In this document: one piece after another, positions 1,740 through 36,400 of the stretch | Layout: the number at the start of each line of letters is the position of its first letter | How positions within the stretch are numbered: the first letter of the stretch is position 1 | From: Corallium rubrum | Taxonomy: Eukaryota; Cnidaria; Anthozoa; Scleralcyonacea; Coralliidae | DNA length: 64,000 nt | Assembly: GCA_964035015.1 (NCBI GenBank) | Contig: OZ035998.1 | Span: 34,358,628 to 34,422,627 of the forward strand | Reading direction: 5' to 3' | The notes under the pieces: model-generated | What the model saw: the letters and a program-made list of their open reading frames with translations, nothing else | Told to the model about the DNA's origin: nothing | The model's database searches: none | Made by a program: the position numbers and the translations under genes

Positions 1740-2956
1740 TTATTCACTCTCTGCCACTGGAGATTGATATAAACTGTTTATAGAAATGTTTGTATGACCT
1801 CCTTGAATCAGAGCTCCAGAAAGTAAAGATATGGCGCCTTGTTGTTGTTGTTGTTGCATCTTCTGCTGGTTTTGTCTGGTAGATTTGTTGTTGGCCAATG
1901 GCAATGATACAGTTTGATGGAAATCGTTGCTGGAACCTCCTTCTTTTGCCGTCGCCAAATAAAGCTCGATACATTTTCATTTGCTGGCTTTGTGATACCG
2001 TTGAATAATTACTAACGCTTTGCAGCTTTGCACGTTTTTATGTCCAGAAAGTTGAATTATGTCGGTTGGAGGAATATTGTTGTCTGTCAAGGTTTGCATC
2101 ATCGTTTGACGGCCGCTATGGTTTTTCAGATTCGGACCAAATCCAGCTTTATCAATCATTCTTTTCATCAGAGAGTTTTTAAACCAAGGTTTCGATGAAT
2201 CTGTTCTGCAATTGGTGCTTCGTCCACATCCATTTCTTTCGGCCGTTTTTCTGCGTAGAACTTATAAACAGTGACAGGGTCTTTTTCACTCGAAGTGGAA
2301 GGGACAGCAAACATTTTTGGCTTAACTTTTCGCACATTCCCCACTCGACGTTTGGCGTAGTTGTACGTACGTCGCCCCAGCACATATCTCTGTGTTCTTT
2401 GCAACCACGGAGACAAAATTGAATTGTGTTATTAAACCATATATATCGTGTTTAGTAAAGCTTCGGAAGTCGAAGTACCCAAAAGTTTCAAATCGTAAAG
2501 CAGTTTGACTTCATCTTCGCTCAGAGCAACCGGAGAATTTGGTTTGTTGCCTTTCCCTTTTTGCTTGAGGTCTTTCTGTTTTGATTGCAATGTCTGTCGA
2601 GCCTGTTCAAACTCTTTGTCCTTGATGATACTGAATCCGTAATTTTCTTTCTTCAAATATTTTTCAAAACTGGCAAACTTAGAACGTAGGGAATTTGGCT
2701 CGTATTCTTCGTTGCTCTCTTTCTTTCGGACAGAGATAATAAACTCGCTCAAGTAAACATTGAGTTCCGCAGGCGAAATATCCTCGATTTTTCTTGAGTC
2801 ATTCTTCAAAGACAAAAATTCTTGAAGAAGTGCAACGTCCTGTAGTGTTTTTCGTTTTGTATTTTCGTTCTCCTGACCTTCGATGAATTCCTGTACAGAG
2901 CTGGGTATCTCGGTAAACCGTAAAGCCATTTTCCAACGAAGCAGTAAGCAAACCAA
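1740..2956 (-). pseudogene. Decayed Crypton-type tyrosine recombinase
   Basis: Three reading-frame blocks on the minus strand line up as one recombinase broken by frameshifts and stops. The first (2432-2956, 174 aa) has an N-terminal core-binding-like helical region ending in ALSEDEVKLLYDLKLLGTS. The second covers about 2168-2410 and contains PKMFAVPSTSSEKDP. The third (1977-2168) carries the catalytic-domain signature NHSGRQTMMQTL followed by IIQLSGHKNVQS: an HxxR box and a GHK motif typical of Crypton/DUF3504 recombinases (family knowledge). I did not find an intact catalytic Arg-1 block or the tyrosine in one frame. It is a relic of an element, not a host gene; a domesticated relative is less likely because of the frame breaks. 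Confidence 0.75.
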
Positions 2957-3934
2957 CTGAGTTGTTCAACAAGCCATGCGCGGGAAAAAGCTGCAATACG
3001 ACTTTTTTCACTAGTGACAAATATCGTATTGACACTGTGATTGGTTGTACGATATTTTTCACTAGTGAACTGAATCGTACGACCAATCACATTCAACTGA
3101 AAACTTTTTGATACGATTATTATTTCTTGCCTCGCAAGCTGATATTTCTCAGTACTTATATAATAAATAAGAAGTTATGTTTTCGGAAAATATGATCATA
3201 TAATTGGCAAATAAGGTGCAGAAACACGCATGGAACCAGGAAGGAAAGGACTGGGGGTTAATCATCCATGCCTTTCCTTTTTGAGTCAATATGCTTCAAA
3301 TGGAAATTTCCCATAAATTATTTCCTTCGCTGCTTATCGGAGGTTTGTAGTTGTACTCCAATTGGGCTAATTTGAAACAATTGACTCTCGTTAATTATCT
3401 TAGTTAAAATGAATTAGTTAAATTATAGCTTTGGTGATTAACTGCGCTTGAATGTATTTCTTATGAATTAATGTGTAGTTAAGAGCGGTACTTTCCACGT
3501 GTGCATCATGTGGTATATATGCCAGCTGGATGTAATGTATAAAGTATGTAACAGACGTCTGGTGGACGTTCCTCAATCTCAAATACTTAGAAAATATTTC
3601 TGTGCTTAAGAAACATTTTCTCGGTATTTGAGCGTGACGAATTACGTCTACCGGGGTCCTGGGACGTTCGTAAAGAACATGAAACCGAAATCCTTTAAGT
3701 ATTTTGTGACATTTGTGTCAGTGTAACGCGTAGCTCTAAAAAATCATTTTAATCATATACTTCAAAGGAAGTGTTAAGTCCTCTGCCTACGTCATTTGAA
3801 AGAAGTGTTTTGTTCGGTTTGCATCACATAAACAATATCGCAATTGAAAGCGATTATAGTCGTCAATAAGTTGGCTAATCGAAAGACAAACAAACACGAC
3901 CAGAAAGAAAAGTCAGAGGGGAGTACAGCTAACG

Positions 3935-4864
3935 ATGTCGAAAATACAGAAAGTCTGTATGATTACTGGCGCTAGTTCTGGTCTTGGCTTCGAGACTAGC
4001 AAGAAAATGGCCGCTCTTGGCTACGAGGTGATACTGGCTTGTCGGAATGATTCAAAAGCTAAACTGGCAATAAGCAAGATCAAGCGGGATCTGCCCGATG
4101 CTCGACTTATTTACATGAATTTAGACTTGAGTAGTTTTCGTTCCATTGAAAAGTTCTGCGGTAACTTTCACCTGTCGGGGAAAAAACTCAACGTCCTTAT
4201 CAATAATGCGGCGTGGATGGACAACGGTGGTGCTAGCACGCCTTCGTTCACCGAAGACAAGTTTGAGATGACTTTCGGCGTGAATCATCTCGGCCATTTC
4301 TTGCTCACAACTCTACTCCTAGATGTCCTTCAGTCGACGGGAAAGTTCGACCTCGAGGCACGTGTCGTGATTATATCCTCCGACGTCCAAAACCCGACGG
4401 GTGTCTGTGGCAGACACGGCAAGCGAGCACACTTGGATATAGATGATATTCAGTTACTGAAGCCAGGGACATACAATGGGAAGCTCGCCTACAAGAATTC
4501 AAAGCTAGCCAATGTTTTGTTTGCTTATGAATTAAACCGTCGACTCGATGGCACCGGTGTGACGTGTAATGTTCTCAACCCGGGATTCATTCCATCAACA
4601 AACGTCTTTCGAAACCAGAATGTTTTCAGCAAATGCTGCATGCGATGCTTCTTCCCTTTTATCTGCTCATGCAAAGTGACCACTGTGAGTCAAGCGGCGA
4701 GTTCTGTCGTCTTTGTTGCCAGTGATAGTAACCTTAGAGGGGTGAGTGGAAAGTCTTTTGTTGGTCGTGAAGAAACCGATAGTTCGTTAGAATCTGAGGA
4801 AACAGATGTGGCAAGACAGTTATGGGAACTCAGCGAGAGAATGGTCGCTGGTGTGACTCCGTGA
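3935..4864 (+). CDS. Intronless short-chain dehydrogenase/reductase, protochlorophyllide reductase/retinol dehydrogenase-like
   Basis: A single exon encodes 309 residues of a classical SDR, an NAD(P)H-dependent oxidoreductase. The nucleotide-binding TGASSGLG lies at residues 11-18, NNAA at 90-93, the active-site serine in IISSD near 148-149, and the YKNSK catalytic Tyr/Lys at 186 and 190. NHLGHFLL at 117-124 and ACRN at 35-38 are typical of the retinol dehydrogenase and light-dependent protochlorophyllide reductase branches. The C-terminus, with NPGFIPSTNVF and WELSERMV, is closest in my memory to plant/bacterial protochlorophyllide reductase. There is no signal peptide or membrane segment, so a soluble protein is likely. 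The start is the first ATG, with stops upstream. It lies upstream of, and in the same orientation as, the enoyl-CoA reductase exons and may sit inside an intron of that gene. The substrate is unknown. Confidence 0.9.
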   Translation: MSKIQKVCMITGASSGLGFETSKKMAALGYEVILACRNDSKAKLAISKIKRDLPDARLIYMNLDLSSFRSIEKFCGNFHLSGKKLNVLINNAAWMDNGGASTPSFTEDKFEMTFGVNHLGHFLLTTLLLDVLQSTGKFDLEARVVIISSDVQNPTGVCGRHGKRAHLDIDDIQLLKPGTYNGKLAYKNSKLANVLFAYELNRRLDGTGVTCNVLNPGFIPSTNVFRNQNVFSKCCMRCFFPFICSCKVTTVSQAASSVVFVASDSNLRGVSGKSFVGREETDSSLESEETDVARQLWELSERMVAGVTP

Positions 4865-5994: not shown

Positions 5995-13563
<7,569 letters not shown>

Positions 13564-15730: not shown

Positions 15731-16505
15731 TTATGTCAACAAATAGGCGTACAGAATTGCAAACAACGCCACAGAAACTCCCAGAAGAACAACGAGGTTT
15801 CCACTAGAACAATTACCACGGTGAATAGGCGTTACTGTTGCTGCTTGTGTTGTCGACATACCCGCTCCTGTTACTGCTCTATGATGTGGGGTTGTTGTTG
15901 ACTTGCTTTGACCAATGGCGAACGGGCATTTACCTCCAGAAGGTTTCGTATCGGGGATTTCTTCGGGGGGCTCGCCTTGTAACTTACTCGTCGTCTTGTC
16001 AACGCTTTCAGGAACGTAACCACATAAAACGCTCAACTCGTTGAACAATGCAATGTTGAACTTGAAGGATTTGACGGACTCGTCGACAATCCGATCCGCG
16101 GTTTCTTTATCGAGCCGCAACGCGTCTAGACTGCTACGGTACTTGTCCTTGAAAGCCTTCTTGTTCGAGATGTGCTCGAATTCGTAGAACTTCAAGCCTT
16201 CATCGCCCGAAAGACCCAGAGCCTTGGTCAAGATTCGCTTGATGACCTGTCCACCAGACAGATCACCCATGTATCGTGTGTACTGGTGTGCCAGCAACAG
16301 CAACGGGTCTTCTTCGCTTAGTTGCCGTAGGCGGGCGGTGTAATCTCGGATCGTGCTAATCGACTCGATTTCGTCCGCCCAGTCGCTTCCATAGAAGTAT
16401 TCCAAATCCTTTATAATTTCTGCAGTTCTATTCAATTCGTTTGGAAAGTAGGTGGCCTCGAGCTTTGGATGGGATTTGTGCTTCTCGCTTACTTCTTCCA
16501 AAGTC
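15731..16505 (-). CDS. Heme oxygenase exon 6 (catalytic core and tail anchor)
   Basis: Acceptor TATGTAG|GACTTTG completes a split Arg codon; ends in TAA. Encodes RTLEEVSEKHKSHP, the distal-helix YTRYMGDLSGGQ, NIALFNELSVLCGY, the single C-terminal KCPF motif and the hydrophobic tail ending AYLLT. Confidence 0.95.
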
Positions 16506-19500
16506 CTACATAACACAGTGGAATAAAAATAGTGTGCTCGAACAAAATATGTCGAAATATATACGCAGCCCTGAAAATTAGGTACATACATATAGGCGAG
16601 CCGACCTAAAACATTGCTCAAATGCTTATGAATCGGCAGTTATCTTTAATGAAGTGCCTATGAAACAAAAATTAAGTGTGTCTTATTTGAAAGAACACTT
16701 AAAATGACAAAGTAACATATTTTGCAACTTTTCGTTTCCTTGCTTCGTTCTTGAGATATTTCAGGTTGTTTGATATGTTTGACATCTTGACGTCATTTTG
16801 CCGTTTTCTGTTCAGTTATAGATGCACAGATGACGTCACAACGTGGTAAGAACAAAAAAGTGGCCCACGAGATGCAGTTGAGTGGGTCACTGATGTTCTT
16901 ACCACGTTGTTACGTCTTCTGTGCATCTATAACTGAACAGACAACAAAAAAAATGGAATCTAATTGTTTTATACAATATAAAAATTACACAATACTTCTT
17001 GCCGGATTTTGGGGCATGAAGAAAGAAAAAAGCAAGTCAGCTGACGTGATCTGACGTGATCCATGTGTCTGTCCTCTAATAGATCGTGGGCAACAAACCA
17101 ATGAAAACACGCATAGCAACCAGGGTATTGTATACATATATCTTTGTTATTATCGAACATAATCACTTGAAAACCTACATGTTTGGTGTTGTGGAAAAAA
17201 CACACCAACATATGCTTCCTTAGAATTAATTAGAATAATTTGGTTTGCATGATAATAGGAACGATATATAACCACTGATCTCCAAATAAACTGGATGGGC
17301 CCTTCCCTATGTCCAGCAGTCAAACATTTCGTGGCAGTCGCCGCCATCTTACGTAGTGGGACATATGACGCATTGCGGCCTTAGAACTTGTTCCCAATCC
17401 TAAAGTTGACTGGCATAAGCAATCTTGACGTCAGCACGGTCACATTATCCGGGAGGAGGAATATTATGTGTGCTGTGCCGGGGGAGTCGGAAAAACCGTA
17501 AAGCAAATAACAGATGCCGGTTCGTTTAGTTTTCACTGTTCAACAACAAATACAGTCAAACGATGGCAAGTACACAACAGAAATATTGTTAAGGCATTAA
17601 GATTACTATAAAAGACTTGAAATTGAATTCTTCGTAGATTTTATAGTCTGTTTTTCAGTTTATATTATCGTGAAGTTTCTTCGTTGTCGGCACTGAAGAA
17701 AAACAACGAAATTTAAAGGTTTTACAGCTCAGTAACAGAAACAAATACAAGAAATGAACGTCTTAAACCTTATTTAAATTTTCTTAAAATAACTCTTTTT
17801 GTCTGTTTTCAATCTACGAAAGCTATGAATTTCAGTGGCAGCCATCTTGGGTAGTGGTCACGTCATCATACAACTGGCACGTAAAATCCGGCCCAAGGGC
17901 CCATCCAGTTTATATACAGATCAGTGTATATAACCTTCTCCGATAAGTCATTATGCACATGTGATGTGACGTCAGAATGTTTAATTTTATCAAACTAAAA
18001 TTATATAAAATATCAAACAACCTGAAATATCTCAACAACAAAGCGAGAAAATGAAAAACTGCAAAAGATGTTACTCTCATTTTAAGTATTCTTTCAAATA
18101 AGACAGACTTAATTTTCGTTTCATGGTAAAATCGTAGTCCGATCCGACGAAACAGCCGCTCAAATCCGATCCGAAAAAATTAAAACACCGGATATATATG
18201 CGGCAAATCCGGTCCGATCCGAATGTGGCAAGTCCGGATCGGATCGGATTCGCACACCTACTTCAAATGCCTATCTTTGAAGTAAATGGTTTCTATTCCA
18301 GATAACTATTAGCTTCCTGTATAAATACACTGTAATAGAAAAGTAACCACAATAATAACGAATATTATACCTGTAAACGAAGTAAAGGTTAGACAACAAC
18401 AACTTATAAGCGGCTGGTGTAACCTGTCCTTTCAAAAGCTGCTTCACGAAGAACGTATTCTCAGCCAGGCGATGAATCTTCTTGGTGCCTGCCTTCAACT
18501 CGCTGGACAAAACAATGCCCGATGAGGCTACGAGCTCTTGTTCAATGGCTTCTCGGGCATTCTCGGTCGCTTCTTCGAGAGCTCGGCTAGTCAAGTAAGA
18601 CTCGAGTTTCTCGACCAGAGATTTCTCATCGCTGCAAACCGTTTTGAATGGGCAGCCCATTTCGGTCTTGAACATTGGGCATTCTCCAATTTCATTTCGA
18701 AGATCAACACTTATCTCGTGGACCAATTTTAGACTTTCAAGCACTTTTCCGTGACTGCCATTTTCGTCGCCTAGGTTTGGGATTTCTTGGAGTTGCAGAT
18801 ATACATCGCTCATACTTCGGCAATCTTTAAATGCACAACCGTCCTTGAATGCCGGACATTTCATAGCGTTCTCAAATACTCCGGACGTTTTGGGCGCCTT
18901 GGAAAACGGACAGGACGGCTGAAAGACGGGACAGGTGTCCTTGACGCTGCTCACTTCGGTTGTCATAATTTTTCTCTTCGACGGACTCGGAGGACCACAT
19001 TCACGGATGTGAGACACGACAGACCCAACTGGTTCGACCAAATGTTTGCCTTCCTCACTGCGGACACTCTTGAATGGACATCCTTGGTCTTTGTGAAACA
19101 CAGGACAATCTCCAAGCTTCTCTTCAAGACATTCGGAAGTATCGTGCATTTTCTTAAATACTTCAACCAACTTCTGACCAGAAAATTCACTTTCATGTCC
19201 AGCAGCATGTGGAACATGAGACAACTTCTGGTAAACTTCAGAAAGACTTTTGGCATCCTTAAACGGACATCCTTCTTTGAACTCAGGACACTTTTCAATT
19301 GCTTCAACCAGCTGCTTCTCCTCTACTTTGGCAAACGGACAACCATCCTTGAATGCAGGACACTGTTCTTTCAAATGACTGGCATCAACTGTCTTTAATT
19401 CATCAGTAACATGCTGGAAGAAAATAAATTACACAAATCAAAATATTAGCAGACGTTTGTCAAGCTCAACAACTCAGAAAATGTTTCTGCCCACCAGACA

Positions 19501-22500
19501 GCGAACGAACCTTTAACCTTCTAATGACCTGTTGTTATACGCTCTAACCATTGCGCTACTGAGGTTACGTCGGATGACGAAAAGTTGCAAATTAATCGTG
19601 TGCTCCTAAGAAAATGTTTCTTAGGACAAGACAGCTATAATGAAACTGTAAGATCCTAAATTCTAATGACCGATTAGACGCTCTAAAGCCTGGTTTCCAT
19701 ATAATAGCTATATACGATCGCCGCGATCGCTCAAAAATCAACTCGGCGATCGCAGCGATCGTATGGAAACACTGACCTCTATATAACTGGACTGCGGGTG
19801 CCCCACGAAAAAATGACCCGATTACACGCCATCTTGTTAGGTCTGAGCCGCGAAATTGACCCATCACAGATGACCGACAGGACGCCATCTTGTTAGGTCT
19901 AAAATTAACCAATCAGAAAATCAAAGATGGCGCCGTTCAATTGGGGACACTTCGTGCAATACAAAAGTATCGAGGACCCGCAGTCCAGTTATATAGAGGT
20001 CAGTGTATGGAAACCACTGACGCAACCATCGCTACGATAGCATGTTCTAAGGATTTTGTGATAGCTGCGATCGCCACGATTGTAGCGATTATATGGAAAC
20101 CAGGCTTCGCCATCGAGTCCTGAGGCTCGGATGCAGAGCTAAGGTGGTTGTAAATCCAGCCATATGTGCTTCCAATGTGGTATAACTTGCATATGAGATG
20201 TAGCTCAGATGGTATGATTGCGAGCTTGGTGTAATGTAACAGACGTTCGGTAAACGTTCATCAAGCTAAAATACAAGCTCAGAAAATGTTTCTGCATGAG
20301 TATTTGAACTTGCCCTGTTAGACTCTCTAAGCATTGAACTATACTGTGCAGGCCTCGAATTTTGGAAAAGAAAAGGCAAGGCCAGTTTGGCCTTGACTGT
20401 TACAATGTTTTTCAGGGCATCAAGGCCAGTTTGAAACTTTCATTGAGTTGCTATTTGAAGCACCTTATACCATACAATGATACAATGTGCCGCCGCTAAA
20501 TTCGAGGCCTGCTGTGGCTCAGCTGTAGAGCTCAACCATATGCATGCATGCATGTTCGGCCTAAATAAGCTACCAAATAGATTCTAACATAGTATAGCAT
20601 ACCAAAAACCTAAAGACAAATATATACCAGACCCAAGAAAAGTAATTTCTTACCTGGTCGTGAGCCACGGGCTCTACTGGTTCCACCAAATGTTTGCCTT
20701 CCTCACTGCGGACACTCTTGAATGGACATCCTTCGTCTTTGTGAAACACAGGGCAATCCCCAAGCTTCTCTTCAAGACATTCGGAAGTATCGTGCATTTT
20801 CTTAAACATTTCAACCAACTTCTGACCAGAAAATTCACTTTCATGTCCAGCAGCATGTGGAACATGAGACAACTTCTGGTAAACTTCAGAAAGACTTTTG
20901 GCATCTTTAAACGGACAACCTTGTTTGAACTCAGGACACTTTTCAATTGCTTCAACCAGCTGCTTCTCTTCTACTTTAGCAAACGGACAACCATCCTTGA
21001 ATGCAGGACACTGTTCTTTCAAATGACTGGCATCAACTGTCTTTAGTTCGTCCGTAACATGCTAGAAGAAAATAAATTACACAAATCAAAATATTAGCAG
21101 ACGTTTGTCAAGCTCAACTACTCAGAAAATGTTTCTGCTTCTAATGACCTGTTGTTATACGCTCTAACCATTGCGCTACTGAGGGTACGTCGGATGACGA
21201 AAAGTTGCAAATTAATCGTGTGCTCCTAAGCAGTAGCGTTTGCATATAAGATGTAGTTGTGATGATATAAGTTGTACGTATACAGTACATGTAGTGCATG
21301 TGCTACGTTTTTGAGGTTGGTGTAATGTAACAGATATGTGGTCGACGTTCCTCAAGCCCACATGTGGTGCACGATGTGGTACGTTTGCTTCGGTAAATGT
21401 TCGTCAAGCTCAAATGCACGCTCTAACTATATATTGAGCTACTGAGGATCGGATGGAGAGCTAAGGTTGTAAATCCAGTCATATGTGCTTCCAAAGTACA
21501 TAACGTTTTACATTTTTACATATGATCGAGATGTACACGCGTAAAAACGCACAACTTGTTCACGGTTTTCAACAGGCGTGAACAATGTTGTGCTGCTCGC
21601 CGTGAACAAGTTGTCAACAAGTTGTTCACTTATCGTTCGAACAACTTGTTCACCGATAAATCAACAGTCTTGAACAAGTTGTTCCAACAGCACATTCTTA
21701 TAGCCAACAACGTTGTTCGCACATGATACAACATGTTGCAACAGCATGACGAAGTAACAACGATGAACAACAATGTTACAACAATGGTGAACATGGTTGA
21801 TGTATCAACACGTTCTTCGGTTGTTACAACACGCGTGAACAACGGTTGTTGTTTCATCAAGCTGTAACAACTTGTTGAAACTGATGAACAATGTTGTTCA
21901 TTTATCAAATGTTGTTCACATATGTCAACAAGTTGCTATAGCATTGTTCAGGCAACAATGCTGTAACAACTTGCGCGATTTTTACGCGTGTAGCTGAGCG
22001 CCACGTATACGTGTAGTGCAAGTGGTACGTTAGACGGCTTGGAGTAAATGTAACAGTAAACGTTCGTCAAGCTCAAATACATGCCCAGAAAATGTTTATG
22101 AGTATTTGAACTCGTCATCTTAGACTCTCTAAGTCTCTATAAATCATTGAGCTATAAGTGTCACACAGCTGGAGAGCTCAACCATATGTATGCATTCTAA
22201 GCAGGAGTATAGTACCAGATGCCTGGGGAGGCATCTGGTCCTGGTCATGTTCAGCATAAATAAGCTACCAAATAAATTGTAACATAGTACAGCACACCAA
22301 AAACCTAAAGATAAACATACACCAGAGTGACCAGACACATGCAAGAAGTAATTTCTTACCTGGTCATGAGCCACTGACTCTACTGGTTCCACCAAATGTT
22401 TGCCTTCCTCACTGCGGACACTCTTGAATGGACATCCTTGGTCTTTGTGAAACACAGGACAATCCCCAAGCTTCTCCTCAAGACATTCGGAAGTGTCGTG

Positions 22501-25500
22501 CATTTTCTTAAACATTTCAATCAACTTCTGACCAGAAAATTCACTTTCATGTCCAGCAGCATGTGGAACATGAGACAACTTCTGGTAAACTTCAGAAAGA
22601 CTTTTGGCATCTTTAAACGGACAACCTTGTTTGAACTCAGGGCACTTTTCAATTGCTTCAACCAGCTGCTTCTCCTCTACTTTGGCAAACGGACAACCAT
22701 CCTTGAATGCAGGACACTGTTCTTTCAAATGACTGGCATCAACTGTCTTTAGTTCGTCAGTAACATGCTGAAAGAAAATAAATTACACAAATCAAAATGT
22801 TAGCAGACGTTTGTCAAGCTCAACTACTCAGAAAATGTTTCTGCCACCCAGACAGCGAACGAACCTTTGACCTTCTAATGACCTGTTATACGCTCTAACC
22901 ATTGAGCTACTGAGGGTACGTCGGATGACGAAAAGTTGCGAATTAATCGTGTGCTCCTAAGCAGTAGCGTTTGCATATGAGATGTAGTTGTGATGATATA
23001 AGTTGTACGTATACAGTACATGTAGTGCATGTGCTACGTTTTTGAGGTTGGTCTAATGTAACAGATATGTGGTCGACGTTCCTCAAGCAGTGGCGTAGCC
23101 AAAGGCGAGCCAGACCGGGCTCAAGCCCGGCCAATCCGCGTCAATGATGTCATTCATTATTCTACTAATGTCCAACGCTAGTCCGTGGCCTGGCCACGCG
23201 TTTTCCATGTGTGATTTGTGTACTCGTGACTAAAAGAATCTATACCGCACGCTATTTTCACTAACATACTTGTATGGACAATAAATACATAACTCCAACT
23301 GACTAAAATGTTTGCCGCAATCCTCCAAAAAAATAATGTAAATATTTAATTTTCGTATTTTATAATCTTCAGAATTCTACAATTCTTTCCCTAAAATGCA
23401 GGAAATGGCATTTCAAAACCCTTAAATTTCAAAAATTTTCCGGGGCATGCTACCCCTTCTTTAGAAATGTCACTTCGTGCCCGCCCAATTGGTCAACCCT
23501 TGCTACGCCACTGTCCTCAAGCCCACACATACGTTTGCTTCAGTAAATGTTCGTCAAGCTCAAATGCATGTTCAGAAAATGTTCCAAGCTGATATTCTAG
23601 CTTGACTGATTAGACGCTCTAACTATATATTGAGCTACCGAGGATCGGATGGAGAGCTAAGGTTGTGAATCCAGTCATACGTGCTTCCAAGTGGTTTATA
23701 AAATAAGGTGTCCTCTACGCACGCTCTGATTGGCTGGGCTCCGTGCATTTATAAGAATATGAAGATCATGAATGACGTAAAATAGCGTGGAATGGCGTAG
23801 GATAGCGCCACCTGGCGGGAAAATCCGGCGAACTTTCAAAACTACCACACTTTTAGCTTGACTTTTATTAATAATTATTATTTTATAAAACATACCGCTC
23901 CTGTGCATATGTACTCTTATAAAGGTACGTTTAACGTCATTTGAACGCAAAAGAAGTGTAAAGGCACTCGGCCTCTACTCAACTTCTTTCGTGTTCAAAT
24001 GACGTCAAACTTGCCTTTATAAGAGTACATATGCACGGAGCTTTATATTTTATTTGTTAAATAACGTTTTACATATGATCGAGATGTAGTTGAGATGATG
24101 TTAAGAGCGCCACGTATACGTGTAGTGCAAGTGGTACGTTAGCAGGCTTGGAGTAAATGTAACAGTAAACGTTCGTCAAGGTCAAATACATGCCCAGAAA
24201 ATGTTTATTTGAAAATGTTTATAATGAGTATTTGAACTCGCCATCTTAGACTCTCTAAGTCTCTATAAATCATTGAGCTATAAGTGTCACTCAGCTGGAG
24301 AGCTCAACCATATGTATGCATTCTAAGCAGGAGTATAGTAGCAGATGCCCAGGGAAGCATCTGGTCCTGGTCATGTTCAGCATAAATAAGCTACCAAATA
24401 AATTCTAACATAGTACAGCACACCAAAAACCTAAAGATAAACATACACCAGACACATGCAAGAAAGTAATTTCTTACCTGGTCATGAGCCACTGACTCTA
24501 CTGGTTCCACCAAATGTTTGCCTTCCTCACTGCGGACACTCTTGAATGGACATCCTTGGTCTTTGTGAAACACAGGACAATCCCCAAGCTTCTCCTCAAG
24601 ACATTCGGAAGTGTCGTGCATTTTCTTAAACATTTCAATCAACTTCTGACCAGAAAATTCACTTTCATGTCCAGCAGCATGTGGAACATGAGACAACTTC
24701 TGGTAAACTTCAGAAAGACTTTTGGCATCTTTAAACGGACAACCTTGTTTAAACTCAGGACACTTTTCAATTGCTTCAACCAGTTGCTTCTCCTCTACTT
24801 TAGCAAACGGACAACCATCCTTGAATGCAGGACACTGTTCTTTCAAATGACTGGCATCAACTGTCTTTAATTCTTCCGCAATATTTTGCTAAATAGAAAA
24901 CAAAGTACACAATTTCATGTCTTTATAGATAACGTTATTTTCCCCTGATTCGATCATAATACGTGCAAATTCTTTCCTGTGGACTAATAAGTGGTCCAGG
25001 ATTTTAAAGTAAACTTTTAGAAAACGTAAATGAACAAACGAAGAAGAAAAAGATATATAGCTTATTTACCAAACATAGAAAAATGTTGTCCTCAGTGTTG
25101 ACAATACAGTCCTCGGCGCTCAGCCTTGGTCAATTACAGGTCAATACAGTTTAATGGGCAACATTTTCCTAGTACAAATGAACTGATATACCACCTATAT
25201 ATAGGTCAGTGTCAGAGCTCCAGTTTGGTAAATTTATAACAAATATTGACTTGTTTTTTTAATTGATTGTAAGAAGAATTAATATACTTAAGGCATTCCT
25301 GTAATTTGATTTGCTGCATATGAGTGGGCATGTGTGTTTTTTTTTCACAAATTGTTTTGACCTCAATCCAAATTAAGTCACTGTTATTTTCTTGCACTAA
25401 TGTAAGTATGTTCTAGCTTGAGGCAGGGTTGAAACCAAAACCTATTAAAAAAATCCCCCAAAATATCAACAATATTGTGTTTTTAGTTACATAAAGAAAA

Positions 25501-25987
25501 CAGCCGAGTGACAAAAATAAGACAATGTCTCATTACTACATTCATTTGATGTCAGTACTGTATCTGTCCAAGTACTGTAGTTAACATATATTTCATTAAT
25601 TTAATCTCAGTAACCCCCCCCCCCCCCCGCCCATAATTGTGTAAGGTCCGCATTTAACCCTTTGACTACTAGAGGTTCTCAAATGGGATGGTTGGTGAAC
25701 ATCTGGCAAGAGACAGAGTGAAATAACAAAAGGCCAGTTTTTAAGCCAGTCTGGGAGTCAAACAGTTAAGGTTTGTGGTGTGTATTATACAAATTATTTT
25801 GAGTGCAAATTAAATTTCCACTTGTGCTGTATATAGGTCACATATTACTTAGCTTCATTTGACAAAAAAACAGGTTAAAAATGTGGCTTAGTAAAACACT
25901 GAGCTGCTTACAGTCATAATTATATAAACTAACCTCATCCTCTTGGTCTTTAAGACTGGTAGCATCCACACCTTTATTTTCATCCAT
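15731..25987 (-). CDS. Heme oxygenase with a 30-motif Cys-Pro (heme regulatory motif) array and C-terminal membrane anchor
   Basis: Six exons (25934-25987, 24478-24888, 22360-22767, 20654-21061, 18371-19413, 15731-16505) join in frame to 3099 nt, giving 1032 aa. Heme oxygenase opens heme to biliverdin, CO and iron. The catalytic domain spans about 730-945: LKAGTKKIHRLAEN with proximal heme ligand His741, GQVTPAAYKLLL, and YTRYMGDLSGGQ (distal helix, 850-861). The C-terminus (about 1011-1029) is a hydrophobic tail anchor, suggesting the ER membrane as in HO-1 and HO-2. Residues 19 to about 690 are five modules of about 136 residues with six, six, six, six and five Cys-Pro motifs; one more, GGKCPFAIG, lies at 968-969 before the anchor. 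Human HO-2 has a few such heme-binding motifs near its C-terminus (family knowledge). A large N-terminal array suggests heme or redox sensing; that is inference. The start is the first ATG in a short exon. Confidence 0.93.
16651..18126. mobile_element. MITE family B copy with internal insertions
   Basis: The left arm, GAAGTGCCTATGAAAC through TCGTTTCCTTGCTTCG to GTTTGATATG (16651-16790), is repeated in reverse complement at 18010-18126. Between them lie a palindrome (16810-16940, arms GTTCAGTTATAGATGCAC) and the hAT-like element 17273-17926, so the original element has been expanded by nested insertions. All is within heme oxygenase intron 5. Confidence 0.7.
17273..17926. mobile_element. hAT-like non-autonomous element, CACTGATC termini, 8-bp duplication TATATAAC
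   Basis: The left end CACTGATCTCCAAATAAAC with TGGATGGGCCC is mirrored by GGGCCCATCCAGTTTATA and GATCAGTG at the right. TATATAAC flanks both sides exactly (17265-17272 and 17927-17934). No transposase coding is seen in the 654 bp. Confidence 0.82.
18371..19413 (-). CDS. Heme oxygenase exon 5 (Cys-Pro modules D and E plus start of the catalytic domain)
   Basis: 1043 nt; acceptor TTCTTCCAG|CATGTT and donor TTTACAG|GTATAA, phase 0 in and 2 out. Module D (residues 428 to about 560) matches the single-module exons. Where those end at a donor, this exon reads on (SHIRECGPPSPSKRK) into a diverged module E (about 580-695) with TCPVF, SCPFS, KCPAF, ECPMF and GCPFK. One expected motif is changed to GCAF. 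The catalytic domain starts in the same exon and includes His741. Confidence 0.93.
19500..19580 (-). repeat. tRNA-derived SINE fragment in heme oxygenase intron
   Basis: On the minus strand CTCAGTAGCGCAATGGTTAG resembles an A-box of a tRNA promoter. Copies occur at matching places in the other duplicated introns (about 21135-21195 and 22850-22935), so it predates the exon duplications. Confidence 0.5.
19688..20105. mobile_element. MITE with GCCTGGTTTCCAT termini, hosting a nested hAT-like element
   Basis: Begins GCCTGGTTTCCATATAAT and ends ATTATATGGAAACCAGGC. Inner arms carry CGATCGC words. It is interrupted by the element at 19770-20005. Confidence 0.8.
19770..20005. mobile_element. hAT-like element, CACTGACCTC termini, 8-bp duplication TATGGAAA
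   Basis: The termini CACTGACCTCTATATAACTG and CAGTTATATAGAGGTCAGTG are perfect inverted repeats. TATGGAAA flanks both ends (19762-19769, 20006-20013). Related to 17273-17926 by its CACTGAYCTC ends; partial relatives lie at about 6292-6380 and 61845-62145. Confidence 0.85.
20349..20511. mobile_element. Small MITE with CAGGCCTCGAATT termini
   Basis: CAGGCCTCGAATTT on the left and AAATTCGAGGCCTG on the right. Inside, GGCCAGTTTGGCCTTGA gives shorter repeats. It lies in the intron between modules C and D. Confidence 0.75.
20654..21061 (-). CDS. Heme oxygenase exon 4 (Cys-Pro module C)
   Basis: 408 nt, phase 0-0; acceptor TCTTCTAG|CATGTT and donor GACCAG|GTAAGAAAT. Six Cys-Pro motifs (QCPAF, GCPFA, KCPEF, GCPFK, DCPVF, GCPFK). 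Differs from modules A and B at few positions (for example KLVEMF instead of KLIEMF, and DEGCPF instead of DQGCPF). Confidence 0.93.
21536..21990. mobile_element. TA-flanked element rich in AACAAGTTGTT words
   Basis: Starts CACGCGTAAAAACGC and ends GCGCGATTTTTACGCGTG, with TA on each side. The 455-bp interior is packed with TTGTTCA/TGAACAA and CAACAAGTTGTT words on both strands. The matching place in the neighbouring duplicated intron (about 24081-24090) reads GAGATGTAGTTGAG without the element: an empty site supporting TA target duplication. Confidence 0.82.
22360..22767 (-). CDS. Heme oxygenase exon 3 (Cys-Pro module B)
   Basis: 408 nt, phase 0-0; acceptor TTCTTTCAG|CATGTT and donor GACCAG|GTAAGAAAT. 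Six Cys-Pro motifs at the same places as in modules A and C. Nearly identical to exon 2 beyond its first few codons. Confidence 0.93.
23098..23513. mobile_element. hAT-like element, CAGTGGCGTAGC termini, 8-bp duplication TCCTCAAG
   Basis: Ends CAGTGGCGTAGC / GCTACGCCACTG. TCCTCAAG flanks both sides (23090-23097, 23514-23521). The paralogous intron at 21349-21356 holds a single TCCTCAAG without insertion. The inner part carries the CGGGGCATGC and GGAAATGGCATTT words seen in the dispersed G/C-run repeat. Confidence 0.9.
23690..24062. mobile_element. Inverted-repeat insertion in the intron between modules A and B
   Basis: Absent from the paralogous intron, where the two flanks (GTGCTTCCAA and AACGTTTTACAT) are near neighbours at about 21490-21510. 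Inner arms near 23905-24035 share TATGTACTCTTATAAAGG and AACTTCTTTCGTG. Confidence 0.65.
24478..24888 (-). CDS. Heme oxygenase exon 2 (Cys-Pro module A)
   Basis: 411 nt, phase 0-0; acceptor TTCTATTTAG|CAAAATATT and donor GACCAG|GTAAGAAAT. Starts QNIAEELKTVDASHL where later modules read HVTDELKTVDASHL. The intron upstream is not part of the duplicated unit, so this is the outermost copy. Confidence 0.93.
24900..25930. other. Heme oxygenase intron 1: no gene seen
   Basis: AT-rich sequence with a C-run at 25614-25628 and a short ATATAGGTCAGTGTC word related to the CACTGACCTC family at about 25195-25212. Nothing else was recognised. Confidence 0.6.
25934..25987 (-). CDS. Heme oxygenase exon 1 (start codon)
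   Basis: 54 nt encoding 18 residues from MDENKGVDATS to QEDE, phase 0 at donor GATGAG|GTTAGT. A plausible acceptor (TTTCCTCTGATATGAAG) ends at 25990, which would make the exon mostly coding with the 5' UTR on a separate exon. Confidence 0.82.
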
Positions 25988-25999
25988 ATCTTCATATCA

Positions 26000-33450: not shown

Positions 33451-36400
33451 CTGCAAAATAATTAGTTTTAAAATAGGGAAAATAAATCTCTTGGAAAATA
33501 AGGATTCTGTTGTTAAATATTGTAAGAAAAACTTTATACATTATTTATCAAATCATTATTAATTCACGACGAAAATTCAAAAGAAATGAATGTTTATTTA
33601 ATCAGCATCTTTAAATACGGATAAAACATTGATTAATAAAACATCAATGTTTTATCAAAGTTAATAGGCACTAGTGGCTCAAATTCAGCTTTTTCTGAGT
33701 TAAAATGATCTTATTTAACCTTTTCTACGACTCTTATTAAACAAAGTGTTCATCATTTACACTTATAATTTGATAAGTAAGTTAAACTATTCGCGTCCCA
33801 TCTTTATGGGCATTTACAATGGCTCGCCTTCGGCTCAGGCACGTAGACAGGATTTTGAAAGGGGGGGAGCCGAAATCAAAAAAATTTTTAGGGGAGTCCG
33901 GGGCCATGCTCCCCCGGGAAATTTTGAAATCGAGAGTCGCTAAAATGCCATTTCCTGGCTTTTGGAGGAAGATTTTACAGACTCTAAAGGTTAAAAGAAC
34001 GTCATATAAAATACTCAAAACACGCAAACGTCACATAGATACTCAACCTCGTCCCCAGGGCATTTTGCCTCCACGTTGGGAGTCGGCGAAAATGGCCCTG
34101 GCATCGGCTGGTCACGTGACACCCAGAAATTTGGGGTGTTTTGGCAAGAAAATTTATGCGGTCTTTGTGTTTCGTTTTTGTATAATACGTATACATGAAT
34201 AATAAATAATAAATATTTAACGCTCTGCCGAATCACTCATGTGAACCTTCATCATAAATGCAGCTGGCTAGCATTATTCATCATGATACTCCCCACGATT
34301 ATCCAGGATACATTTAAATGTCGGGAAGAAACATATATCTAATGTTGTTCTTGACTTTAACCAAAGCTATCGTTGCAATTCTTTGGATGAACTTCGCAGA
34401 GTGGATTTATTGCAATTCATATTTTGATGAATAAATTACACTGTATCTGAATTAATCAAGTTTTTAAACCGGCCAATCCGATTATAGAATCGACCAGCCG
34501 ATGCCAGGGCCACTTTCGCCGACCTCCCAACGTGGAGGCAAAATGCTCTGGGGACGAGGTTGATAGACACTCAAAATGCATACACTCAGTCGATGGAATA
34601 CACTGTTTACAGTTTATTTCCTGACACAATTGATATTGCATCAGTTTTGTAGTTACATGTCTGTCGTTCTGGCTACGTCCCTGCTTCGGGTCGCCATTGT
34701 AAATGCCCATAAAGATCGGCCGCTCATATTTTAACTATTACATACAATAATAAAAAAAAATATTGAACCGTGAAAAAACAGTGTAAAAGAACTTTAGAAA
34801 TTTAAAACAATGGTGTTGACTTTTTAGTTATTCCAGGTAGCCAATACCTCTAACTATTTTAATTTAGACAAAATTATTCTCTTGGAAAAAAATCCGTTAT
34901 TGAATAGTGTAAAACAACAATAGAAATTTTAGGGATTTATGGTGAAGGAAAATTCGAGTGTAGAATATATACATTATAAGACCAAACCGGGACCAGTTGC
35001 GAAAAATGCAACTACACAGGCCTTCCGGCAGGAATTGAACCCAATATTACTTCTAATAAACCCAATGCTGTCCTGGCATTACCACCTTGATGTATACAGA
35101 ACTCGCACCAAGCTCTCGGCAACGGCCTCCGTGGCTCAGTGGTCAGAGCATTGCACTAGAATCGCAAGGTCGTGGGTTCAATTCCTGCCGGAAGGCCTGT
35201 GTAGTTGCATTTTTCGCAACTGGTCCCGGTTTGGTCTTATAATGTATATATTCTACACTCGAATTTTCCTTCACCATAAATCCCTAGAACATGCTATGTA
35301 ATCGAGTGAAATGCCCAATATTACTTATAGAAATTTTAAATGGCGTTATTGGCGTTGACTCTGGCTTCCGGGATTTTATAGGTATTAAGTTATTTCAGGT
35401 AGCCAATACCTCTAAATATTTTAATTTATTTTCTTTAATACTATAAAGACATAGACAAAATAATTCTCTTGGGAAAAAAATCTGTTATTGAATAGTGTAA
35501 AAAACTTTAGAAATTTAAAACAATGACGTTGACTCTCGCTTCCTGGAATTTCTAGGTTTTTAGTTACTTCAGGTAGCCATGCCAGTGCATTTAAATATTG
35601 TAATTTATTTCCTTTATTATGAAAAGAAGATACGAAAAATAATTCTCTTTGGAAAAAAATTATGTTATTGAATATTACAAGCAATAGCGTTAACAGTAGT
35701 TCTTCCGTTCCATATCTCAGTTCGTTTTGAAGATGAAGATGAAGATGAAGATGAAGCTTTATTGTTATGTAAATGACAAGATCGACACATTGCATAATGA
35801 CTTATTAATGCCATTGAAAACGATAAATATTTTCAAGATTATTTAAAGTGTCTATGAAACAAACATTATGTTTGTCTTATTTGAAAGAACACTTAAAAGC
35901 ACAAAGTAACATCTTTTACAGATTTTCGTTTCCTTGCTTCGTTTTTGAGATATTTCAGTTTGTTTGATATGCAAATTTGACTTATAAGATAACTTTACGT
36001 CACAGTTTGCATAATGAGTTACCGCAAAGTTCCTATATCTTTGTTATTATCCAACAAAAATACTTGGCGAATTAGGAACCATGTGCGAGTGTTTCTCCAG
36101 TCTGTAAATTGTAAATTGTAAATTGTAAATTGTAAGTGTTTTTGTTTGACAATAACAAAGATATATAATCTTTTGCCGGTAAGTCATTATGCAAAGAGTG
36201 ACGTAAAGTTATCTTATAAGTTAAATTTACATATCAAACAAACTGAAATATCTCAAAAACGAAGCAAGGAAACCAAAAACTGCAAAATATGTTACTCTAT
36301 CATTTTAAGTGTTCTTTCAAATAAGACAAACTTAATTTTTGTTTCATAGGCACTTTAACGAAATGGTTTAAAATTGTCCATCCTTAATGTCATGCAACAT

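Follow-up and report, generated by a model that had tools for sequence, protein, structure and literature searches.

We analysed a window of 64,000 nucleotides from the anthozoan Corallium rubrum (contig OZ035998.1 of assembly GCA_964035015.1, positions 34,358,628 to 34,422,627). On its minus strand, between positions 25987 and 15731, lies a gene that joins a long array of Cys-Pro motifs to a heme oxygenase (HO). A preliminary description had proposed six exons coding for 1032 residues, with 29 Cys-Pro motifs before the catalytic domain and one behind it. When the gene model was rebuilt from the sequence, these figures were reproduced exactly: the six exons yield 1032 residues and a stop codon with 0 internal stops, and all five introns have GT..AG borders. 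The exons and their features are as follows.

25934..25987, minus strand: exon 1, 18 codons from the ATG (MDENKGVDATSLKDQEDE), resembling the start of a module
24478..24888, minus strand: exon 2, which is module 1, six Cys-Pro
22360..22767, minus strand: exon 3, which is module 2, six Cys-Pro
20654..21061, minus strand: exon 4, which is module 3, six Cys-Pro
18371..19413, minus strand: exon 5, module 4 and the diverged module 5 followed by the beginning of the HO domain with His741, in one open frame
19000..19413, minus strand: module 4, six Cys-Pro
18559..18969, minus strand: module 5, diverged, five Cys-Pro, the sixth being Cys-Ala; in-frame ATG at 18966
15731..16505, minus strand: exon 6, the remaining HO domain, a C-terminal Cys-Pro-Phe, a hydrophobic tail and the stop codon
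16247..16267, minus strand: GDLSGGQ distal helix motif, residues 855-861
15923..15928, minus strand: C-terminal Cys-Pro (in K-C-P-F), residue 968
15734..15799, minus strand: C-terminal hydrophobic segment by Kyte-Doolittle, putative tail anchor

Fusion of the array to the enzyme is independent of splicing, because one uninterrupted exon (exon 5, 19413-18371) holds modules 4 and 5 together with the start of the HO domain. Its frame codes for modules 4 and 5 with a linker between them and then runs through the first 46 residues of the HO match, among them the proximal His, so that 11 Cys-Pro motifs share an exon with the beginning of the enzyme. Exon 5 sits in an open frame of 385 codons; when the bases of the 11-kb stretch were shuffled 200 times, no frame exceeded 188 codons. 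The claim that the modules are fused to HO was thus borne out by exon 5, and also by the low ratio of nonsynonymous to synonymous divergence (dN/dS) of modules 1-4 and by the detection of a sole HO gene in the genome, both presented below. The possibility that modules and enzyme belong to separate genes was ruled out, as both are encoded within exon 5.

The protein matched the Pfam family Heme_oxygenase (PF01126) over residues 729-931 with an expectation value (E) of 4.5e-70 and 236.1 bits against a cut-off of 23, covering profile positions 3-204 of 204; exon 5 alone gave E 6.2e-11. The closest PDB sequence was the HO-2 chain 5uc8 (E 5.1e-58), whose alignment is ungapped over the join of exons 5 and 6 and therefore supports that splice. 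In this alignment His741 pairs with the His of GTKEAHDRAEN, and both proteins carry the same GDLSGGQ. The presence of a complete HO domain with proximal His and GDLSGGQ, as originally described, was therefore confirmed by both Pfam and the 5uc8 alignment. From this domain, the protein is predicted to convert heme to biliverdin, carbon monoxide and iron. Searches of NCBIfam with exon 5, exon 6 and module 2 gave no match that reached a cut-off, for HO or any other family. The proposed single Cys-Pro behind the HO domain, followed by a hydrophobic tail, was likewise present as one KCPF (residue 968) and a segment in which hydrophobic windows begin at residues 1012-1014, with a 19-residue Kyte-Doolittle maximum of 2.55 (starts 1012 and 1013). 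Its role as a membrane anchor is putative.

Of the 40 Cys in the protein, 30 precede Pro; 29 of these Cys-Pro fall within residues 37-681, and the last is at residue 968. By comparison with these 29, Cys-Pro occurred on average 2.3 times, and at most 8 times, in 2000 residue shuffles of positions 19-712. CPF and CPxF types each account for 15/30 motifs and are mostly paired as CPxF..GCPF, with three such pairs per module; module 5 is short of one half-pair. The four near-identical modules 1-4 hold 24/30 motifs. Between modules 4 and 5, motif Cys and Pro are kept at 11/12 positions, versus 41/118 for the other aligned residues (Fisher p 1.7e-4).

In each of modules 1-4 the Cys follow the same spacing of 7, 17, 7, 54 and 9. 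Such regularity is also compatible with a structural function, in which the paired Cys would hold zinc or another metal, or form disulfides, and the modules would be small folded scaffold or interaction domains that place HO in a complex instead of serving as heme ligands. The 41/118 residues other than motif Cys and Pro that module 5 has in common with module 4 fit this alternative, as do Pfam matches to two TRAF-type zinc fingers and to Fer4_11. These matches were below cut-off (zf-TRAF_2 22.4 bits versus 27, zf-TRAF 14.9 versus 27), like all Pfam matches besides HO, and stood beside the unrelated NagJ_C and ATPTG10. Zinc fingers do not require Pro after Cys, whereas three quarters of the Cys here precede Pro; the module found no match among PDB sequences at E up to 10; and its location on an HO would be a coincidence. 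We regard a structural function as possible, and as less probable than the heme-related reading set out below. AlphaFold2 models of the module and of exon 5, built on five-row alignments, had mean pLDDT (predicted local distance difference test) values of 40.7 and 38.2 and were too poor to use. Cys-Pro motifs of heme-binding proteins are mostly in loops between two helices (PMC10377097); the models predicted helices between the Cys-Pro pairs, but for their poor quality these do not count as evidence.

In protein, modules 2, 3 and 4 are 97%, 95% and 91% identical to module 1, and the copies of modules 1-4 are 95-98% alike in DNA; module 5 is 41% identical to module 1 and 41-44% identical to the other modules overall. 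Across 128 codons, 6/6 pairs of modules 1-4 showed synonymous divergence (dS) of 0.086-0.158, nonsynonymous divergence (dN) of 0.006-0.025 and dN/dS of 0.06-0.19, and no pair differed at any second codon position. Introns 2, 3 and 4 have homologous pieces at both ends (87.7-98.9% identical) in addition to large private stretches; intron 1 did not match introns 2-4 at E 1e-5. Together with the near-identical exons, the shared intron ends indicate tandem copying of a unit made of one exon together with flanking intron, probably next to a module 5 that was older and linked to HO. The lengths of exons 1-4 (54, 411, 408 and 408) keep phase 0, and exons 2-4 could therefore each be skipped or copied with the frame intact. 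Haplotig duplication was rejected as the main account, with one locus found in 474 Mb and dS of 0.09-0.16.

Homologous stretches, copied together with the exons of modules 2, 3 and 4, lie upstream of them (22868-22961, 21138-21230 and 19516-19610, minus strand). Two of the three (at 22909 and 19558, modules 2 and 4) fit a loose pattern of the A and B boxes of transfer RNA (tRNA) genes. The stretch may derive from a short interspersed nuclear element, and it could have served unequal crossing-over. Inverted-repeat stretches resembling miniature inverted-repeat transposable elements were seen at 19686-20107 (intron 4), 16803-16945 (intron 5) and 23885-24053 (intron 2).

The inclusion of modules 1-3 in the protein rests on splice joins, for which the support consists of phase, splice sites and constraint. 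We therefore considered whether the real protein is shorter, either because modules 1-3 are misassembled or unused or because translation starts at 18966 (residue 577). In-frame ATGs of exon 5 are found at residue 516, at residue 577 (just before module 5) and at four later positions. A transcript that started at the second of them could give a shorter form, of 456 residues with 6/30 motifs, five in module 5 and the C-terminal one. The close likeness of the copies in DNA and the shortness of exon 1 are in keeping with such a form, and the joined gene model is a prediction from DNA. However, the copies are separated from one another by dS of 0.09-0.16 and introns 2-4 differ by large stretches private to each; exons 2-4 keep phase 0 and have GT-AG borders, modules 1-4 have low dN/dS, and the assembly yielded one locus. 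Module 4, upstream of the residue-577 ATG, is under constraint and in frame as well, an argument for its translation. A shorter protein is accordingly the least probable of the alternatives we weighed, and in our judgement quite improbable.

Exon 1 is the weakest and least certain exon of the model. It has the donor GTTAGT and is preceded by an in-frame stop at 25999. Its sequence DENKGVDATSLKDQ aligned with EELKTVDASHLKEQ of module 1 with an ungapped BLOSUM62 score of 37, reached by 0/1000 shuffles; the match to module 5 was chance-like (415/1000 shuffles). The 5-kb region preceding exon 1 had three AP-1 cores and no TGCTGASTCA or RTGACNNNGC sites.

We looked for the module in Pfam, PDB sequences, viral contigs, GTDB genomes and the C. 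rubrum assembly itself (474,352,983 bases in 312 contigs). In the assembly, the module protein was found at five places, all within this gene, and the HO family at two, which are the two HO exons of this gene. With a 455-residue query and matches allowed up to E 10, six places were found, again all in this gene. As only the best candidates were scored, the only HO gene here means the only one found. For the module, none of 7 pattern matches in viral contigs and none of 46 in GTDB genomes was confirmed. An exon 6 query gave 47 pattern matches in GTDB genomes with 0 confirmed, which is no evidence of absence because the scan needs exact peptide patterns and the HO family does occur in 3/14 control genomes. 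Viral contigs (loci L014-L024) carry HO genes 40-45% identical to exon 6, and in all 11 loci found with exon 6 the frames measure 235-257 residues from stop to stop and have no Cys-Pro, although several loci are near-identical and the 11 are not independent cases. The statement that no such protein had been described fits the PMC open-access literature, in which none was named among the matches listed (titles and abstract openings). No larger Cys-Pro array on a heme enzyme is known to us.

An HO with motifs resembling heme regulatory motifs (HRMs) is of a known kind, and the N-terminal array is the unusual addition. The HRMs of HO-2 are CPF motifs too. Mammalian HO-2 (HMOX2) shares with the C. 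rubrum protein its HO domain, as the best PDB match, HRM-type motifs in the same chain and Cys-Pro between the catalytic domain and the hydrophobic tail. The C-terminal KCPF resembles the HO-2 motif that lies at Lys263-Ala268 in the numbering of PMC11900463. That paper describes two C-terminal HRMs in HO-2, whereas the C. rubrum protein has one C-terminal motif. A further difference is the placement of 29 Cys-Pro in five modules at the N-terminus of the C. rubrum protein; the one module searched had no PDB match. The catalytic domain is alike in HO-1 and in bacterial and viral HOs, such as 1we1 and the viral proteins above; the latter differ in their length and in having no Cys-Pro. BACH1, BACH2 and other HRM proteins, to our knowledge, have few motifs, no tandem exon modules and no heme-degrading domain. 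They are similar in having several Cys-Pro, partly in disordered regions (PMC11699347); the construct of the BACH2 intrinsically disordered region in that paper has three motifs.

As for function, the Cys-Pro of the array had been proposed as heme ligands that might form a buffer, a sensor or a delivery array. The reading we favour is that of a tail-anchored, HO-2-like enzyme in which the HRM principle was extended into a tethered arm for holding heme, one that would feed or gate the HO pocket and be shut by oxidation. The array would lie on the cytosolic side of the endoplasmic reticulum, tethered near the membrane, where reduced Cys-Pro thiolates would capture labile ferric heme with modest affinity. 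Captured heme would be held near the membrane and then handed to the HO pocket. Once the closely spaced Cys pairs were oxidised to disulfides, the arm would release or refuse heme. Capacity would have grown, perhaps from 11 to 29 motifs, as one symmetric (phase 0-0) exon was copied in tandem, and the motif number could be adjusted by skipping exons or through an internal start site. This reading is supported by the exon 5 fusion, the HO-2 match, the kept His741 and GDLSGGQ, the detection of a sole HO gene, the CPF or CPxF form of every motif, the kept Cys and Pro, the low dN/dS and the precedent of the HO-2 HRMs. According to PMC8808069 and PMC11900463, these bind a second heme and form a disulfide that depends on redox state, and they reportedly aid heme loading of the catalytic centre. 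We hold the reading tentatively, at somewhat less than an even chance; it and the three alternatives are not mutually exclusive.

Several observations weigh against it. None of the 30 motifs matched the published HRM_t or HRM_r patterns (PMC3904948), by which this protein differs from HRM proteins and which adds to the case for a metal or disulfide structure, as the regular paired Cys and the sub-threshold zinc-finger matches do. About 87% of heme-binding Cys-Pro motifs have Ala, Ile, Val or Leu within four residues before the Cys, as reported in PMC10377097; here such a residue precedes 15/30 motifs and 0/15 of the CPF type. The likeness to HO-2 is nearly tied by a second HO among PDB sequences, 1we1 (Synechocystis HO-1; E 6e-57). 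A BACH2 fragment without Cys-Pro motifs was still heme-responsive (PMC11699347), and in HEK293 cells mutation of both HO-2 HRMs left heme lowering by HO-2 unchanged (PMC8808069). Finally, HO-2 activity in vitro falls with heme-bound HRM (PMC11900463), which favours a brake over delivery.

The last point opens a further alternative, namely that the array is a heme sensor, in which heme on the Cys-Pro inhibits HO or triggers its turnover and does not feed the active site. Consistent with this, HRMs regulate degradation in most other proteins, as stated in PMC8808069. Nevertheless, 29 motifs appear to far exceed the need of a switch, and copying under low dN/dS suggests that the amount matters. 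We therefore think a pure sensor or brake improbable, more so than a structural function and less so than a shorter protein.

If the tethered arm that we favour does hold heme, the gene may encode an HO with its own multi-site heme store. Five modules might carry up to about 15-29 hemes per chain and act as a heme capacitor tethered to the membrane; exon copying would change its size in evolution, and buffering, redox state and degradation would be coupled in one protein. We consider this more far-reaching view doubtful. Accounts of the role of the HO-2 HRMs (delivery, buffering or brake) in PMC8808069 and PMC11900463 do not agree. A natural HO with 30 Cys-Pro, whose array belongs to the one HO gene detected in its genome, is an extreme test case of whether Cys-Pro number changes heme loading, turnover and inhibition.

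Other features were present in the window. Open frames at 1980-2965 (minus strand) resemble remnants of a Crypton-type tyrosine recombinase; neither of their Pfam matches, a QRICH1 domain (E 7.5e-7) and a phage integrase (E 0.0019), reached its cut-off. A long simple repeat at 12871-13485 can be read without a stop in each of the six frames, giving SVCL and DRQT; these frames are mechanical and give no evidence of a gene. An open frame at 3860-4861 (plus strand) has a short-chain dehydrogenase domain (PF00106, E 1.8e-26), the minus strand at 11063-11280 carries a U3 small nucleolar RNA gene with a full-length Rfam match of 158.8 bits, and a tRNA-Ser (aga) lies at 35125-35197 on the plus strand.
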